A DNA stretch of 32,049 bases from Candidatus Binatia bacterium (GTDB taxonomy: Bacteria > Desulfobacterota > Binatia > UBA12015), in assembly GCA_019749875.1 (NCBI GenBank), contig JAIEPK010000168.1, positions 1-32,049 on the forward strand, read 5' to 3'. Below the pieces are notes generated by a model. It made no database searches and was not told the DNA's origin. It worked only from the letters and a program-made list of their open reading frames with translations. How positions within the stretch are numbered: the stretch's first letter is position 1; each line of letters opens with the position of its first letter. This document shows, in pieces, positions 9,946 through 18,387 of this stretch. The position numbers were made by a program, and so were the translations under genes.

Positions 9946-10839
9946 ATGGCCACACCGGATCGCCGCCGTCTGCTGCGTCAGGTTCTGACGCGGCCGCACC
10001 GCTACCGCCGCGTGCGAGCGATCACGATGGGCATCACGCTGGCGATCCTCTTCGGCGTGCCGCTGCTCGGCCTCGCACGCCTGGACCTCTTCGGAGACGC
10101 GCACCGGGCGCTGCTGCGACCGGTCGACTTCGCGCACGGCCTGACGGCGGTGCTGGCGGCGATCGTCGCCTTCTACGTCGTGACGTTCACCATCAACATG
10201 CCGGCGGGCCGCATGTTCTGCGGCTTCGGGTGTCCGGTCGGACAGCTGTCCCGCTTCGCGGACGCGATCGACGCGTTTCCCAACGATCCGCTGCGCCGCC
10301 GGCGCGGCTGGCTCGAGCTCGGGGGCTTCGCGCTGGTGCTGTCCCTCGCAGTCACGCTGTGGTGGACGGCGCCCGCCTCGGTCCTCGCCTGGCCGGCGGC
10401 CGCCTTCGCGATGTCGGCCGTATCGACGGTGGCGGCCGCCGCCGTGCTGCACGGCCGCCGCTGGCGGTGGGGCTTCTGCCGCGGCTTCTGCCCGATCGGC
10501 CTCTACTACTCGGTGGTCGAGACCGGAGCGCCGTTCGGCATCGACTTCGATTCCGCCGGCGCGTGCATCGACTGCGGGGCCTGCGACACGATCTGTCCGG
10601 TCCATCTCGAGCCGCGCACACTCGAGGCCGAGGTTCCCGCGCCCGGCGGTCTCGCCTTCGACGGCTTGCCGGGGCTGAACCACTGCCTGCACTGCGGGCT
10701 GTGCGTCGAGGTCTGCGAGCTCGTGACCCAGAAGCAGCCGGGCCGCCCGGCGATGGGCCTGCGTCGCCTGCACCGGAAGCCGCGCCGCCTCGACCGACGG
10801 TCCGACGTGCCCGCGGTCGGCAACGAGCCGACCGCATAG
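9946..10839 (+). CDS. Membrane-bound polyferredoxin, NapH/CcoG-like 4Fe-4S protein
   Basis: An integral membrane iron-sulfur protein, 297 residues, of the kind that passes electrons between the quinone pool and periplasmic or cytoplasmic redox partners. There are roughly four to five membrane segments (about 28-45, 63-85, 124-142, 148-168). Two CxxxCP motifs follow membrane segments (FCGFGCPVGQ, C92/C96; FCRGFCPIGL, C178/C182). Two 4Fe-4S clusters follow: C207-C210-C213-C217 (CIDCGACDTICP) and C247-C250-C253-C257 (CLHCGLCVEVCE). The second cluster ends CE rather than CP. It is shorter than CcoG/RdxA (about 470) and lacks their C-terminal domain, closer to NapH in size. The ATG at 9946 has only a weak ribosome site. 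A decayed paralogue lies at 15190-15485. Confidence 0.88.
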   Translation: MATPDRRRLLRQVLTRPHRYRRVRAITMGITLAILFGVPLLGLARLDLFGDAHRALLRPVDFAHGLTAVLAAIVAFYVVTFTINMPAGRMFCGFGCPVGQLSRFADAIDAFPNDPLRRRRGWLELGGFALVLSLAVTLWWTAPASVLAWPAAAFAMSAVSTVAAAAVLHGRRWRWGFCRGFCPIGLYYSVVETGAPFGIDFDSAGACIDCGACDTICPVHLEPRTLEAEVPAPGGLAFDGLPGLNHCLHCGLCVEVCELVTQKQPGRPAMGLRRLHRKPRRLDRRSDVPAVGNEPTA

Positions 10840-11281: not shown

Positions 11282-12484
11282 GTGATCAAACCTGCTTTGG
11301 CCTGGCTCCTCGCTGGCCTCCTCGCGATCGCGGCGCCCGCCGCCGCAGCCGACGCCCCCGCGCAGCTCGCCAGGTGTCAGACGACGATCGCCAGCGCGAG
11401 CACGCGCTACCTGAGCGGCGTGCGTCAAGCCGTGACGCCGTGCCTGAAGCTGATCTCGAAGAGCGTCGTCGCCGGCGGCTCCTCGACGAGCGCCGCCGCG
11501 GCCACCGCCGCGGACGCCTGCGTCAAGGGCTTCGGCAAGCTGAAGAACACGGCGAAGCCGAAGGCACAGCTCGCCGACCAGCTCGACGCCGCCCTCGGCA
11601 AGGCGTGCGATCCGGCGGTGAACCCGGGCCTGCTGTTCGCCGCCACGGACACCGTCACGGTCGGCGCGACGACGCTGAGTGCCGCGAACCTCGGCGCCTT
11701 CTGCCGCAACGCCGGCGGCAACGGGACGATCGCCAGCTTCGCGGACTGGAAGAGCTGCCTGCGCACCCTGACCGACTGTCAGGCGCACCAGTCGATCCTG
11801 CTGCAGTGGCCGCGCGCGGTGGAATACCTGCAGGCGCTCGAGCCCGCCATCGCGTCCCTGCCACCCACCCCGGCGACGACCGACGCGCTCGCGGCGGTGA
11901 CCGCCTTCGCGAAGGGGCTCGCGCAGCCGGAGTGCGACGTGCCGAGCGGACTCCTCGTCACCGGGCAGCAGGGCCTGATCAGGCTGCAGGACGAGGACTC
12001 GATCTGGCGCGCGGGGGTGCCGTTCCAGTACGCGGACAACGGCGACGGCACGATCAGCGACCGCGTCACCGGCCTCGTGTGGGAGAAGCTCGACCGCGCG
12101 GGCGGCGTGCACGACGTGGGCGTCACCGGAAGCTGGTCCGCGGCGCTCGCCAAGGTCGCGCAGCTGAACCAGAGCGCGTTCGCCGGTCACACCGACTGGC
12201 GCGTGCCGAACCGCCGCGAGCTGCTCAGCCTGGTGGACTATGGCTCGCTCGGCCCCAGCGTCCAGCCGGCCTTCAACAGCGCGTGCGCCTCCGGCTGCCC
12301 GGCGACCGACTGCAGCTGCACGGCGGCGAGCGCGTACTGGTCGTCGAGCGCATACGTGCCCGACGCCACGCGCAAGTGGATCGTGTCGTTCAGCGACGGC
12401 TCGACCTCGACCGACGCCAAGCAGAGCGCACATGGTCTCCGCGCGGTGCGCGGCGGCCAGACGCAGACGGGGGTGACGCCGTGA
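11282..12484 (+). CDS. Secreted eight-cysteine domain plus DUF1566 (Lcl C-terminal) protein, copy 1
   Basis: A predicted exported 400-residue protein. The signal peptide spans residues 1-23 (LAWLLAGLLAIAAPAAAA). Residues 28-225 form a helical-looking domain with cysteines at 32, 54, 80, 109, 141, 159, 166 and 218. I know no function for it. Residues about 249-392 are a DUF1566 domain: YADNGDGTISDRVTGLVWEK, HTDWRVPNRRELLSLVDY, AYWSSSAY and HGLRAVRGG. Within the DUF1566 domain sits a CX3CX4CXC cluster (C335, C339, C344, C346). DUF1566 is related to fold modules of surface and secreted proteins and has no settled activity. The GTG at 11282 was chosen for its ribosome site. The stop overlaps the start of the next gene by four bases. 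Confidence 0.85.
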   Translation: MIKPALAWLLAGLLAIAAPAAAADAPAQLARCQTTIASASTRYLSGVRQAVTPCLKLISKSVVAGGSSTSAAAATAADACVKGFGKLKNTAKPKAQLADQLDAALGKACDPAVNPGLLFAATDTVTVGATTLSAANLGAFCRNAGGNGTIASFADWKSCLRTLTDCQAHQSILLQWPRAVEYLQALEPAIASLPPTPATTDALAAVTAFAKGLAQPECDVPSGLLVTGQQGLIRLQDEDSIWRAGVPFQYADNGDGTISDRVTGLVWEKLDRAGGVHDVGVTGSWSAALAKVAQLNQSAFAGHTDWRVPNRRELLSLVDYGSLGPSVQPAFNSACASGCPATDCSCTAASAYWSSSAYVPDATRKWIVSFSDGSTSTDAKQSAHGLRAVRGGQTQTGVTP

Positions 12485-14130
12485 CGCGCGCATTCCGGAC
12501 GATGATTCTCGTCGCGCTGGCGCTGCTCGCCGGAGCGCGGCGCAGCGACGCGGACGCCGCGAAGAACCTGAACGCATGTCAGATCGCGGTCGCGTCCGCC
12601 GCGACGACCTACATCAAGGCCACGACCAAGGCCCTCGGCACGTGCCTCGACGCGATTTCGAGCGAGGTGATCGGCAAGGGCAGCAGTACCGCCGCCGCGG
12701 CGACCGCGGCGGCGCCGACGTGCTCGACGGCGCTGGCGGCCTTCACGAACACCGCGTCGCCGCAGCAGCAGCTGGCCAGCAAGTTCGACGCGAAGGTCGC
12801 GGCGAAGTGCGATCCCGCCGCACATCCGAAGCTCGGCTTCAGCGACGCGGACACGTACACCGTCGGCACGACGACGCTCGGCGCCGCCAATCTCGCCTCG
12901 ACCTGCCGCGCGTTCGGCGGCAACGGCACCATCGACAGCTTCGCCGCCTGGCGCGACTGCCTGCGCGCCGCGACCGAGTGCGAGGCGCGTCAGGCGATCG
13001 CCGTGCAGTGGCCGCGCGCGCTCGAGTCCTTCGCGGCGCTCGAGACCGCGCTCGCGGCTCTGCCGCCGTCGGCGAAGACCGCCGACGCGCTCGCGGCGCT
13101 CACGACCATCGACGCGGCCATCGAGGGCGCCACCGACGACGACCGACCCGAGCTGACGTGCGGCGTGCCGCCGGGCCTCGTCGCGACCGGACAGAAGCAG
13201 TGCGACCAGGGCAACGGCACGATGGGCGCGTGCCCCCCGGGCGACGGCGGTCAGGACGGCGCCGTGCGGGCCGGAGTTCCGCTCCGCTACTCCGACAACG
13301 GCGACGGCACGATCACCGACCGCAGCACCGGCCTCATGTGGGCGAAGCTCGACGACTCCGGCGGGACCCTCGGCGTCGACCGGCAGGCCCTCGCGCTCTC
13401 CGCGGTTGCTCTGCGCGTCGGAAGCAGCGCCAATCCGTACTTCCCGAACGTCGGCGGCTACGGCGACTGGCGCGCACCGAACATTCGCGAGCTCGAGAGC
13501 CTCGTGGATCTCGACCGGCAGAACCCCGCCATCGATCCCGTCTTCGACCACGACTGCGTGCCCGACTGCACCGTCGATCAGTGCAGCTGCACGCGGCCGG
13601 CCGTCTACGTGTCGTCGACCGAGAGCGCCGACGGCGCCTTCTGGGCGGTTTCCTTCGCCGACGGATCGATGGTGAAGCAGGACCTGCTGGAAACCAATGT
13701 GCGAGTTCGCCCGGTGCGTGGCGGCCGGCTGAACCCGCTCTTCACGCCCGGCGTTCCGGCGGCCATCGCGTTCGACCTCAGCATCCGACATCCGTGGAAG
13801 AGCTCGTGCGTCCCGATGATCCTCGAAGGGCTGGACCCCACTGCCGGATTCACACTCGGCAACGGCACCACGTGCGCAGGCCTGAAATTCGCCAGCGTTC
13901 CGAACTACGGATTCATCACCCAATTCACCGACAACTCCTGCCTCTTCAACCTCCCTCCGGGGACGGTGGACATCACTCCCGAAGACTGGTTCCACCTCCA
14001 GGCCACCTACTGCTACATCCCGTTCTCGGAGACGTTTACCGGCTCCGATTCGTTCACGTACCAGATCCTCGATTCCTCCGGGGTCGCCAGCAACGTCGCC
14101 ACGGTGACCATCGAGATCTTCGAGAACTGA
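12481..14130 (+). CDS. Secreted eight-cysteine domain plus DUF1566 protein, copy 2, with extra C-terminal module
   Basis: A 549-residue paralogue of the preceding protein. The GTG at 12481 overlaps the upstream TGA (GTGA), pointing to translational coupling. A signal peptide (MILVALALLAG) precedes cysteines at 33, 55, 81, 110, 142, 160, 167 and 227. Their spacing (22, 26, 29, 32, 18, 7) is identical to copy 1 up to the last one. DUF1566 covers about 269-414 (YSDNGDGTITDRSTGLMWAK, GDWRAPNIRELESLVDL, VRPVRGG) with the same CX3CX4CXC cluster (C359-C370). Residues about 417-549 are absent from copy 1. They end in an Ig/cadherin-like strand pattern (GSDSFTYQILDSSGVASNVATVTIEI) and have four more cysteines. 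The DNA of this module is poorer in GC (105 of 180 bases at 13861-14040) than the body of the gene (45 of 60 at 13021-13080). Confidence 0.85.
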   Translation: MTRAFRTMILVALALLAGARRSDADAAKNLNACQIAVASAATTYIKATTKALGTCLDAISSEVIGKGSSTAAAATAAAPTCSTALAAFTNTASPQQQLASKFDAKVAAKCDPAAHPKLGFSDADTYTVGTTTLGAANLASTCRAFGGNGTIDSFAAWRDCLRAATECEARQAIAVQWPRALESFAALETALAALPPSAKTADALAALTTIDAAIEGATDDDRPELTCGVPPGLVATGQKQCDQGNGTMGACPPGDGGQDGAVRAGVPLRYSDNGDGTITDRSTGLMWAKLDDSGGTLGVDRQALALSAVALRVGSSANPYFPNVGGYGDWRAPNIRELESLVDLDRQNPAIDPVFDHDCVPDCTVDQCSCTRPAVYVSSTESADGAFWAVSFADGSMVKQDLLETNVRVRPVRGGRLNPLFTPGVPAAIAFDLSIRHPWKSSCVPMILEGLDPTAGFTLGNGTTCAGLKFASVPNYGFITQFTDNSCLFNLPPGTVDITPEDWFHLQATYCYIPFSETFTGSDSFTYQILDSSGVASNVATVTIEIFEN

Positions 14131-15189: not shown

Positions 15190-15485
15190 GTCCCGGCCTT
15201 GCCCTTGCAATGTCAGGGACATTGCAGCCCGGGCCGCAGACGCCTGCGGCCCCTCACCCTGGCGCAGTCGCACCGCTACCTCCGTGCTCGCTCGAGCACC
15301 ATGTCCATCACGCTCGCGATCCTGTTCGGCGTGCCCCTGATCGGTCTCGCCGTGCGTGACTTTGGGGCCACGCGCACCGCGCGCCGGGCCGCCCCGCGAT
15401 GGGCCTCCGTCGAATGCACCGGCAGGCGCGTCGCGTCGTCCGACCGGCCGACGTGCCGGCGTTCGGGACGGAGCCGGCGCCGTAG
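15190..15485 (+). pseudogene. Internally deleted, frameshifted copy of the polyferredoxin gene
   Basis: The 5' part reads RRRLRPLTLAQSHRYLRARS then TMSITLAILFGVPLIGLA, matching residues about 6-44 of the intact gene at 9946 (TMGITLAILFGVPLLGLA). From 15387, in a different frame, it reads GRPAMGLRRMHRQARRV and ends ADVPAFGTEPAP followed by TAG at 15483-15485. This matches the intact C-terminus from residue 266 (GRPAMGLRRLHRKPRRL, SDVPAVGNEPTA). Between the two matched points the intact gene has 714 bp and this copy 86, a net loss of 628 bp that also shifts the frame. All cysteines of both clusters and both CxxxCP motifs are gone. Upstream similarity (ccggtcccggccttgc) continues before the coding start. 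It cannot encode a working polyferredoxin. Confidence 0.85.
15206..15226. promoter_or_regulatory. Perfect inverted repeat, operator-like
   Basis: TGCAATGTC and GACATTGCA flank a 3-bp AGG. It falls near the expected start of the decayed polyferredoxin copy. A dimeric regulator site is one reading. A short hairpin left by chance is another. Confidence 0.4.
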
Positions 15486-15502
15486 CGCGGCGCCGGCCAG
15501 AA

Positions 15503-15567: not shown

Positions 15568-17451
15568 TCAGTTCGCTGCTTGCGCCGTACCGTCGGCACT
15601 CATTCCGTGCGCCATGTGCTGGTCGGCGGAGCAGCCCATGATGCTCGGAACCGCAGGCTCGCTCCACGTCGAGCGACCGTTCGCATCGAGTCCGGTCACC
15701 GCCTGCGCACGCGCGACGCCGTCGCTCGACGAGCCCGCCGCCGGGTCGATGTAGAAGGTCCCGAACATGATGAACATCTCGTTCTCGGTGCTCTCGCCCC
15801 CGGTGATGCGGCAGGCGTCGCAGTCGCCATCGCCGGCGCCCGGCGACGAGTCGCAGGTCGCGTCGTCGTCCGCGCCGTCGCAGGCAGCACCGATCTTGCC
15901 GGCGACGCACGCGATCGGCTTGCAGCGACCGATCGTCTGCGAAGCGCTCACCGGCACGCGCGAGGCGCGCGTGACGAACTCCGGATCGGGCGATCCGTCC
16001 GGCTTGACGCCGTTGTTGTACAGCGAGCAGTAGCGCAGCGTGCGATCTTTTGCGTCGGGCGAGTCGAAGGCGAGCGGCGGATCGTACTGCTGGCGCACCG
16101 GGTCGTTGTAGACGAAGCTCTCGTAGATCCGGTTCCCGTCCGGCAGATCGACGGTGAAGTGCTTGCCGCGCTTGTGCGTGTGCGACGTCACCTCGAACAG
16201 GCGCGCGCCCTGCGGCAGGACGTGGTCGTTGCACACCGTCTGCTCGGTGTACGGCGCCGCGTTCGCCGCGAAGATCCGCGACGCGTCGAAGATGCTGTTG
16301 ACGGGATACCTCTGCTCGGTCGCGAACAGGTAGTTCAGGCGGCCGTTCATGATCGTGTCTTCTTCGGTGAGATTGAAGGCGTGCGAGTTCCAGTAGATCA
16401 CGCCCTTCATCGGCAGCTGCGCGAACACGCCGTCGCGGAAGACGTTGTACGCCTGCGCCTGCTGCGCGCCGCCGACCGGGATCGCGCGGCCGTTGCCGGG
16501 ACCGTAGCCGATGCACGCGAAGGTCGACTTGGGCTCGCTGGCGCAGAAGCCGCTGCCGCAGAACGCGAGGTCCGTCGGCTCGCAGGTCTCGCCGTCGTGC
16601 TCGCCGCCGGCGCACTTCCACTCGCCGAACGACGGGTCGTGCACGTCGACGCCGCCCGCGCTGAAGTTCTCGCTCGGGTAGTAGAGGATCAGGTGGTGGC
16701 TCTGCGGATCTTGCCGCAGCTCGAAGCCCTTGAAGCGGAACATGCCGTTGTTCTGGAAGTCCGCCGGCACCTGCTGGCTGATGTCGTAGTAGGTCGCGAA
16801 GCAGTACTCGTGCTCGCTCTTCTTCTCGAGGTGCCACTGCGGCATCACGAACTGCACGCCTTCGTTCGGCGCCGGCGGATCGAGCGGCTCGATGGTGATC
16901 GGCTTGGGCGCCGGCAGGCACGCGTCGAGCAGCGTCTCGGTGCCGCCGACCGTCCCGGTCTCCGGCGCACCCGCGTAGATCCACAGGCGCAGCGCCTCGA
17001 GCTCGTTGGCCGTCAGCGGCTCGAGGCCGCTCGGCATCGGCGAGCCCGCGATCTCGTAGCTGCCCGGGTCGGTCTTCGCCGACACCTTCATGAACAGGTA
17101 GCTGCGCGTCCGGTCGCCGGGCGTGATGTACGGGAAGCGGCTGCTCCGCGACGGCTTCTCGAAGATGTTCTGGTAGGCGACGTCCGGCGACAGATCGAGA
17201 CCGTTCGTCGTGCCGCTGCCGTGACAGACCTGCTGCGTGCAGCCGCGCTTCTCGAAGATGACCTTCTGGATCGCTTCGAACGTGCTCTCGAACGCCGGCG
17301 CGTTCTCGCACGACGGTGTGCCGGGATCCGGGGGTGGGGTGGTCGAACCGCCATCACCGCCGCCCCCTCCACCGCCACAGGCCGCGACCAGGGTCGCGAC
17401 GCCCAGGACGACGACGACGTTCCGAAGGGAGCGCACGGAGCGGTTCAGCAT
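15568..17451 (-). CDS. Lipoprotein: CX4CH cytochrome-like domain plus copper type II (PHM-like) monooxygenase domain
   Basis: A predicted 627-residue envelope lipoprotein. The lipobox is LVAAC with Cys25, then a Gly-rich tether and a Pro linker. Residues about 48-165 resemble the small c-type cytochrome domains of multidomain delta and planctomycete proteins: C71TQQVC76H77, ITPGDRTRSYLFMKV, MPSGLEPLTANELEALRLWIYAGAP. The haem motif is CX4CH rather than CXXCH. Residues about 200-570 carry a peptidylglycine-monooxygenase-like set of copper ligands: His252-His253 (SHHLILYY) and His357 (NSHAFN) for one site; His424-x-His426 (SHTHKRGKHF) and Met559 or Met562 (ENEMFIMFGTFY) for the other. Cys-rich insertions (280-313, 510-547) probably form disulfides. 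A C-terminal HMAHGM follows. An oxygen-dependent hydroxylation supplied with electrons through the haem is a plausible reading; the substrate is unknown. The ATG at 17451 has AGAGGA 6 nt upstream. Confidence 0.75.
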   Translation of the reverse strand: MLNRSVRSLRNVVVVLGVATLVAACGGGGGGGDGGSTTPPPDPGTPSCENAPAFESTFEAIQKVIFEKRGCTQQVCHGSGTTNGLDLSPDVAYQNIFEKPSRSSRFPYITPGDRTRSYLFMKVSAKTDPGSYEIAGSPMPSGLEPLTANELEALRLWIYAGAPETGTVGGTETLLDACLPAPKPITIEPLDPPAPNEGVQFVMPQWHLEKKSEHEYCFATYYDISQQVPADFQNNGMFRFKGFELRQDPQSHHLILYYPSENFSAGGVDVHDPSFGEWKCAGGEHDGETCEPTDLAFCGSGFCASEPKSTFACIGYGPGNGRAIPVGGAQQAQAYNVFRDGVFAQLPMKGVIYWNSHAFNLTEEDTIMNGRLNYLFATEQRYPVNSIFDASRIFAANAAPYTEQTVCNDHVLPQGARLFEVTSHTHKRGKHFTVDLPDGNRIYESFVYNDPVRQQYDPPLAFDSPDAKDRTLRYCSLYNNGVKPDGSPDPEFVTRASRVPVSASQTIGRCKPIACVAGKIGAACDGADDDATCDSSPGAGDGDCDACRITGGESTENEMFIMFGTFYIDPAAGSSSDGVARAQAVTGLDANGRSTWSEPAVPSIMGCSADQHMAHGMSADGTAQAAN

Positions 17452-17928: not shown

Positions 17929-18387
17929 ATGATGAAGCGAATTCTCGGCACCGCCGCCGCGATCGCGCTGGCGCTGTCCGCGTCGGCAGCCTTCGCCGGC
18001 ACGTACGTCAGCGGCCCGCTCCCGACCGAGTTCGGGGGCGGCTACGTTCCGCCCGATCCCGCGATCCTCAAGAACGTACAGAAGGCGTCCAAGGAAGGTG
18101 CGAAGCTCGCCGCCTCGGTGGAGAAGTGCTACTCGAAGGGCGCCGCGAACTACTCGAAGGGCAAGGCGACCGGAGTGGAGACCTGCCTGAACGATCTCGA
18201 TAAGGGAGTGCTCATCAAGTACGCGGCGAAGATCCAGAGCATCAACCAGAAGGCGCCCGGCCTGCCGCCCTGCCACAATTACGTCGGCGATGGCCTGCTG
18301 ATCGCGGGTCTCGTCAAGGGCTTCAACGGCTCGACGTACTGCCAGTCGCCGAGCGGCGCGTTCGTGGACGGGCCCGCGAGCCTCTGA
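17929..18387 (+). CDS. Small secreted Cys-containing protein, function unknown
   Basis: A 152-residue protein with a textbook signal peptide (MMKRILGTAAAIALALSASAAFA, cut near residue 23). The mature part starts with Gly/Pro-rich sequence, then a Lys/Ala-rich helical region with cysteines near KCYSKG, ETCLND, PPCHNY and TYCQSP. This pattern (KC-Y-KG-Y-KGK then C) recalls the eight-cysteine domain at 11.3-14.1 kb but is not clearly homologous. I do not recognise a named family. The strong ribosome site GGAGGAG (17914-17920) is 8 nt from the first ATG; the next codon is also ATG, so the start could be three bases later. It is monocistronic, followed by a good terminator. Confidence 0.8.
   Translation: MMKRILGTAAAIALALSASAAFAGTYVSGPLPTEFGGGYVPPDPAILKNVQKASKEGAKLAASVEKCYSKGAANYSKGKATGVETCLNDLDKGVLIKYAAKIQSINQKAPGLPPCHNYVGDGLLIAGLVKGFNGSTYCQSPSGAFVDGPASL

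Follow-up and report, generated by a model that had tools for sequence, protein, structure and literature searches.

The window, a stretch of 32,049 nucleotides from a Candidatus Binatia bacterium, carries on its minus strand, at positions 15568–17451, an open reading frame that translates into 627 amino acids plus stop. From the translation, an AlphaFold model, Foldseek searches and an alignment of homologues, the product is predicted to be a lipoprotein that combines a cytochrome c domain with copper domains of the type found in peptidylglycine alpha-hydroxylating monooxygenase (PHM) and dopamine beta-hydroxylase (DBH); all parts of the gene given below lie on the same strand. Starting from the N terminus, a predicted signal peptide (17377–17451) ends in the lipobox LVAAC, with Cys25, present in 38 of 42 homologues, as the predicted lipidated residue, a motif that bears out the lipoprotein call of an earlier note made from the letters of the DNA. 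A c-type cytochrome (PSCyt1-like) domain follows (residues 46–172, 16936–17316), recognised by conservation, by profile matches in the PDB and by matches to PSCyt1, and then a PHM/DBH-like catalytic core (residues 176–575, 15727–16926). The protein closes with C607 and a short C-terminal tail (15571–15633) that is His-rich here and in many close paralogues; across 17 proteins, histidine makes up 11.3% of the tail versus 2.2% of the remainder of the protein, and the tail may aid copper loading. The residues on which the earlier note had built its proposal (C71, C76, H77, H252/H253, H357, H424/H426 and M559) are all found at the positions it gave. Pfam and NCBIfam scans of the single protein gave no model above cut-off, a whole-protein sequence search of the PDB and a search with profile A1 both gave zero matches, and scans for Rfam families, promoters and terminators around the gene found nothing.

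The fold identifies the copper domain. The AlphaFold model of the mature protein, built from an 18-member alignment, has a pLDDT of 77 and a pTM of 0.76. Its best fold match in the PDB is DBH (4zel, E=1.6e-9), PHM entries come next, from E=1.4e-7, and ranks 1–31 are all DBH or PHM (E=1.6e-9 to 1e-5, Foldseek probability 1.00), after which the matches are to unrelated jelly rolls with E values of 1.3e-5 and weaker and low TM-scores. The TM-scores to DBH and PHM are themselves modest, about 0.5–0.57 over the length of PHM and 0.34 over the length of DBH, because of inserts and, probably, the angle between domains. Profile alignment to PHM with hhalign, for which the PHM query was checked to be identical to PDB 4e4z, is near the limit of similarity and aligned only the HTH region (E=0.07). 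The Pfam model Cu2_monoox_C (PF03712) scores 11.6 bits against a cut-off of 23 in the window protein (E=0.2), the best match among 18 family members being at E=0.005.

The ligands fall into place on this fold. CuH is predicted to be bound by H252–H253 (16693–16698; H107/H108 in PHM) and H357 (16381–16383; H172 in PHM), and CuM by H424-T-H426 (16174–16182; H242/H244 in PHM), which lies in HTHKRGK and is paired by hhalign with HTHHLGK of PHM, together with M559 of ENEMF (15775–15777; M314 of DEMC in PHM); we infer both sites from the fold and from complete conservation. In DBH, the equivalents are H262/H263, H333, H412/H414 and M487, its published copper ligands (PMC4846438). H252, H253, H357, H424 and H426 are invariant in 42 of 42 non-redundant full-length homologues and M559 is kept in all 41 that reach its position, the remaining one ending short. 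Judged from these alignments, the conservation of the residues singled out by the earlier note exceeds chance. The copper centre that it proposed thus finds strong support in the DBH/PHM fold match and the complete ligand conservation; as modelled, the domain is best described as a divergent branch, by fold and ligands, of the PHM/DBH superfamily of copper type II, ascorbate-dependent monooxygenases, and not as a member of the Pfam family.

Two Cys-rich inserts stretch the spacing between the ligands. Insert 1 (C280–C313, 16513–16614) lies within the CuH domain, where PHM has no counterpart, and lengthens the gap between H253 and H357. Insert 2 (C510–C547, CDSSPGAGDGDCDAC, 15811–15924), modelled with low confidence, stands immediately before the CuM methionine and lengthens the gap between H426 and M559. 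Each cysteine is conserved in 41–42 of 42 homologues in the first insert and in 40–41 of 42 in the second, and the cysteines of both are probably disulfide-bonded. One relative (L011:5926-7899) has a dockerin-like repeat and an additional Cys-rich module between its HTH and Met copper ligands.

The N-terminal domain contains the haem attachment motif C71-TQQV-C76-H77 (CX4CH, 17221–17241) and an MP motif whose methionine, M139 (17035–17037), is the probable axial haem ligand. C71, C76, H77, M139, P140 and W157 are invariant across 61 copies of the domain, a set that takes in copies from proteins without a copper domain, and C71, C76, H77 and M139 are present in all 42 full-length fusions. In the PDB, the domain profile matches FoxE (9.7e-7), hydrazine synthase alpha (7.9e-6) and, marginally, cytochromes c6. 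PSCyt1 is matched by 25 of the 61 domain relatives, at best with 1.7e-16; the window protein’s own haem domain, searched alone, has no cytochrome Pfam match. Modelled in isolation, the domain reaches a pLDDT of 94.7, and its best fold match, a weak one (E=0.029, probability 0.63), is the cytochrome of hydrazine synthase alpha.

The spacing within the attachment motif varies. Two full-length fusions have a canonical CX2CH where the others have CX4CH: CVGCH in L050 and CVQCH in L052. Both belong to a clade that also contains CX4CH members, and one spacing can thus replace the other within a single enzyme family. CX2CH occurs in 4 of the 61 domain relatives, and CX4CH in 50 of 52 fusions counted (some being the same gene fetched twice) and in 12 of 18 cytochrome-only matches. 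CX4CH is thus the commonest spacing of this haem domain in the lineage and not peculiar to the window protein and, as the usual variant, it should need no special haem lyase. Cytochrome-only relatives from the same clade of domains (L022, L023, L061:1865-2965 and L076) have a further, unusual haem-motif spacing, CX5CH, as in CANSDACH and CSNLAGCH. Ccm is also the system that matures the CX4CH haems in cytochrome c3. A check of the genome for cytochrome c maturation genes, which the earlier note had advised, found a CcmF-type protein and CcmH at C544 and PF01578 at C599 and C645; ResB was not found in the genome, so maturation would proceed by System I. The proposal that the domain holds haem is supported by the PDB profile matches, PSCyt1, the invariant axial-type methionine, the interchange of CX2CH and CX4CH and the Ccm System I genes, all of which favour a c-type haem domain at the N terminus.

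The family is widespread in one uncultured lineage. In GTDB species genomes, a scan recovered 11 loci with 45–61% identity. Every one comes from an uncultured MAG whose label is Deltaproteobacteria or just bacterium, and several are from Lake Tanganyika, to judge from the bin names. The genome that contains the window has seven full-length copies including the window gene, the others being 56–65% identical to it. An 18-member profile detected the family in 41 of the 58 related genomes sampled, and a single genome gave as many as 26 matches, partial ones included. Within the same taxonomic family, each of the 14 genomes sampled, that of the window among them, carries it. In a phylum-wide sample of 395 genomes, with three candidates scored per genome, long matches were confined to the same class and no full-length member was found outside it; of the six genomes outside the class that gave matches, five matched in nothing but the cytochrome domain, and in the other (G205) a weak match fell near the CuM methionine. 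The fusion and its domain order are the same in all full-length homologues recovered.

The nearest relative of the window gene, 75% identical and from another genus, adjoins lspA-ileS as it does here, and this common neighbourhood shows the window copy to be vertically inherited. A plasmid search gave no match. Members of the family occur as tandem pairs in L055:8189-13369 and L004:3786-7743, both on the plus strand, and the expansion is therefore partly due to local duplication. The many diverged paralogues per genome suggest that the family has diversified by substrate. Two PHM-like proteins of the same class have no cytochrome domain (L001:1486-2790 and one in L098, both on the minus strand). 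The CuM methionine is replaced in each, by NEHC in L098 and SEEQC in L001, and they are possible single-copper or altered-site relatives. We considered them as a bridge to PHM and set them aside, since L001 has no PDB match and both have lost the CuM methionine. Taken singly, the copper fold, its ligands and the cytochrome domain are already known, and databases may contain bacterial architectures that pair cytochrome c with Cu2_monoox domains. What has no name in Pfam, NCBIfam or the literature searched is the multi-copy, haem-bearing fusion family. That literature yielded no PHM–cytochrome c fusion, a result that does not prove absence, and the Binatota paper does not mention the enzyme.

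The earlier note had seen a redox theme in the surroundings of the gene, and part of this stands. A membrane polyferredoxin gene (10027–10836, plus strand) with two 4Fe-4S motifs and the motifs CGFGCP and CRGFCP is real, as is a decayed copy of it (15259–15497, plus strand) 4.4 kb from the intact gene, which retains only the two gene ends, at about 76% and 81% DNA identity, the middle ~630 bases being deleted. No operon links the polyferredoxin or its copy to the monooxygenase gene, and the theme finds no support beyond proximity. Among 93 neighbour genes of 30-odd copies of the family, no conserved operon or partner gene names an electron donor or a substrate. Recurrent Pfams among these neighbours have three members at most; CoA-transferases, amidases, AMP-ligases, hydrolases and TonB receptors occur twice each, types that fit, without proving, a catabolic role. 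Divergent from the monooxygenase gene in the window, a small gene (17929–18384, plus strand) encodes an exported protein of 152 amino acids with four cysteines and no Pfam match; it is absent from the syntenic lspA–monooxygenase junction in another genome (G003). Two adjacent genes at 11297–12481 and 12502–14127, both on the plus strand, encode secreted proteins that look like tandem paralogues: their N-terminal regions, which contain Cys, are alike and their C-terminal regions are related, with Lcl_C in the second.

Taken as a whole, the product is predicted to be a surface lipoprotein in which a small c-type cytochrome is joined to a copper oxygenase domain of the type that, in animals, produces noradrenaline and amidated peptides. 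The reading that we favour, and think probable, is that the protein is exported and anchored by lipid, that it is a two-copper monooxygenase on the PHM/DBH fold and that the haem of its fused c-type cytochrome feeds CuH as ascorbate would. Following its sequence motif, the protein would be exported and lipidated at Cys25; by homology and conservation, the Ccm system would attach haem at C71/C76/H77, with M139 as the distal ligand, and the fold and the complete conservation of the ligands would place CuH at H252/H253/H357 and CuM at H424/H426/M559. A donor in the periplasm or the membrane would then supply the haem with electrons one at a time, the haem would hand them to CuH, as ascorbate does for PHM and DBH, and O2 at CuM would hydroxylate a C–H bond of a small molecule. 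The architecture thus suggests a built-in haem instead of vitamin C (ascorbate) as the electron source; we infer the haem and metal content, the direction and path of the electrons and the oxygenase activity. To a broader claim we give about an even chance: that these are lineage-specific, multi-copy, self-sufficient two-copper hydroxylases, in which the fused cytochrome c replaces ascorbate as electron source for CuH and whose paralogues oxidise many small molecules outside the cytoplasm.

The same cytochrome domain is found in proteins without a copper domain (L020, L077, L093, L096 and others) and is therefore a mobile module. It could accompany a PHM-like monooxygenase without reducing its copper in turnover, acting in partner docking, as a structural module or as an acceptor of electrons that leave the site, while some other small reductant feeds CuH. 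The two Cys-rich inserts could serve another partner, and the N-terminal DOMON domain of DBH itself has a haem-domain fold and no haem ligands (PMC4846438). Unlike in that DOMON domain, however, the haem ligands are invariant in 42 of 42 fusions, and the cytochrome domain is kept in every full-length homologue recovered; we regard a cytochrome outside the reductive path as unlikely. We find it harder still to credit that the protein binds copper and haem but has no oxygenase function, its PHM fold serving, for example, as a sensor that binds copper, for storage or as an electron sink. The fold does occur in non-oxygenases, PNGase F among them (weak matches to 3ks7), relatives with an altered CuM methionine (L098 and L001) exist in the same class and many members have the His-rich tail, but the six ligands, methionine included, never vary in the family, which is the pattern of a catalytic two-site centre and not of copper storage. 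That C71 and C76 form a disulfide in a domain without haem is very improbable: the spacing does vary in the wider domain family, from CX2CH through CX4CH to CX5CH, and the isolated domain model found only a weak fold match, but CX2CH takes the position of CX4CH in two fusions, the equally invariant H77 and M139 would not be required by a disulfide alone, the domain profile matches solved c-type cytochromes and published surveys count CX4CH as a haem motif (PMC10734462).

In the literature searched, no form of PHM or DBH is named that carries its own, optically visible electron donor. The coppers of these enzymes lie more than 10 Å apart, and the mechanism of electron transfer between them is still debated. 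A fused haem would let spectroscopy follow the entry of electrons into CuH and would separate the chemistry of the reductant from that of the substrate. For the uncultured bacterial class, this is an unannotated family, missed by Pfam and NCBIfam, that can reach about two dozen genes in one genome, and it probably represents a large part of the oxygen-dependent chemistry of the class.

Among known systems, DBH (PDB 4zel) gives the best fold match; its CuH ligands (His-His...His) and CuM ligands (His-X-His...Met) come in the same order, and it too has an extra N-terminal domain ahead of the CuH domain. Identity is only about 10%, and a c-type cytochrome stands here where DBH, which uses ascorbate, has its DOMON domain without haem ligands (PMC4846438). 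PHM (PDB 3mll, 1phm and 4e4z) shares the fold (E=1.4e-7), the HTHxxGK and (N/D)EM motifs, seen as HTHKRGK against HTHHLGK and (N/D)EMF against DEMC, and the six ligands. The haem-copper family differs from PHM in its two long Cys-rich inserts, its fused cytochrome c and its lipid anchor. It also differs around the substrate: at the position of PHM Arg240, which precedes H242 by two residues, the family has T, S, F or another non-Arg residue, Tyr318 is never Tyr, Asn316 is rarely Asn and Cys315 is mostly Phe. Arg240 and Tyr318 (with Asn316) form the peptide-carboxylate site of PHM and, since equivalents of Arg240 and Tyr318 are missing, the enzyme described here is not a peptide-amidating one.

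The cytochrome half has relatives of its own. PSCyt1 or planctomycete-type cytochrome c domains, FoxE and the C-terminal domain of hydrazine synthase alpha share the pattern CXnCH...MP...W-I-x-x-GA and give the profile matches; unlike these, the domain here is mostly CX4CH and is fused to a two-copper domain. For the division of labour between the two halves, the comparison is with cellobiose dehydrogenase and LPMO, where a type 2 copper monooxygenase receives its electrons from a haem domain. In that system, the b-type haem belongs to a separate enzyme, and a single histidine brace forms the copper site; the likeness that we draw is one of how the systems work, with no claim of homology.
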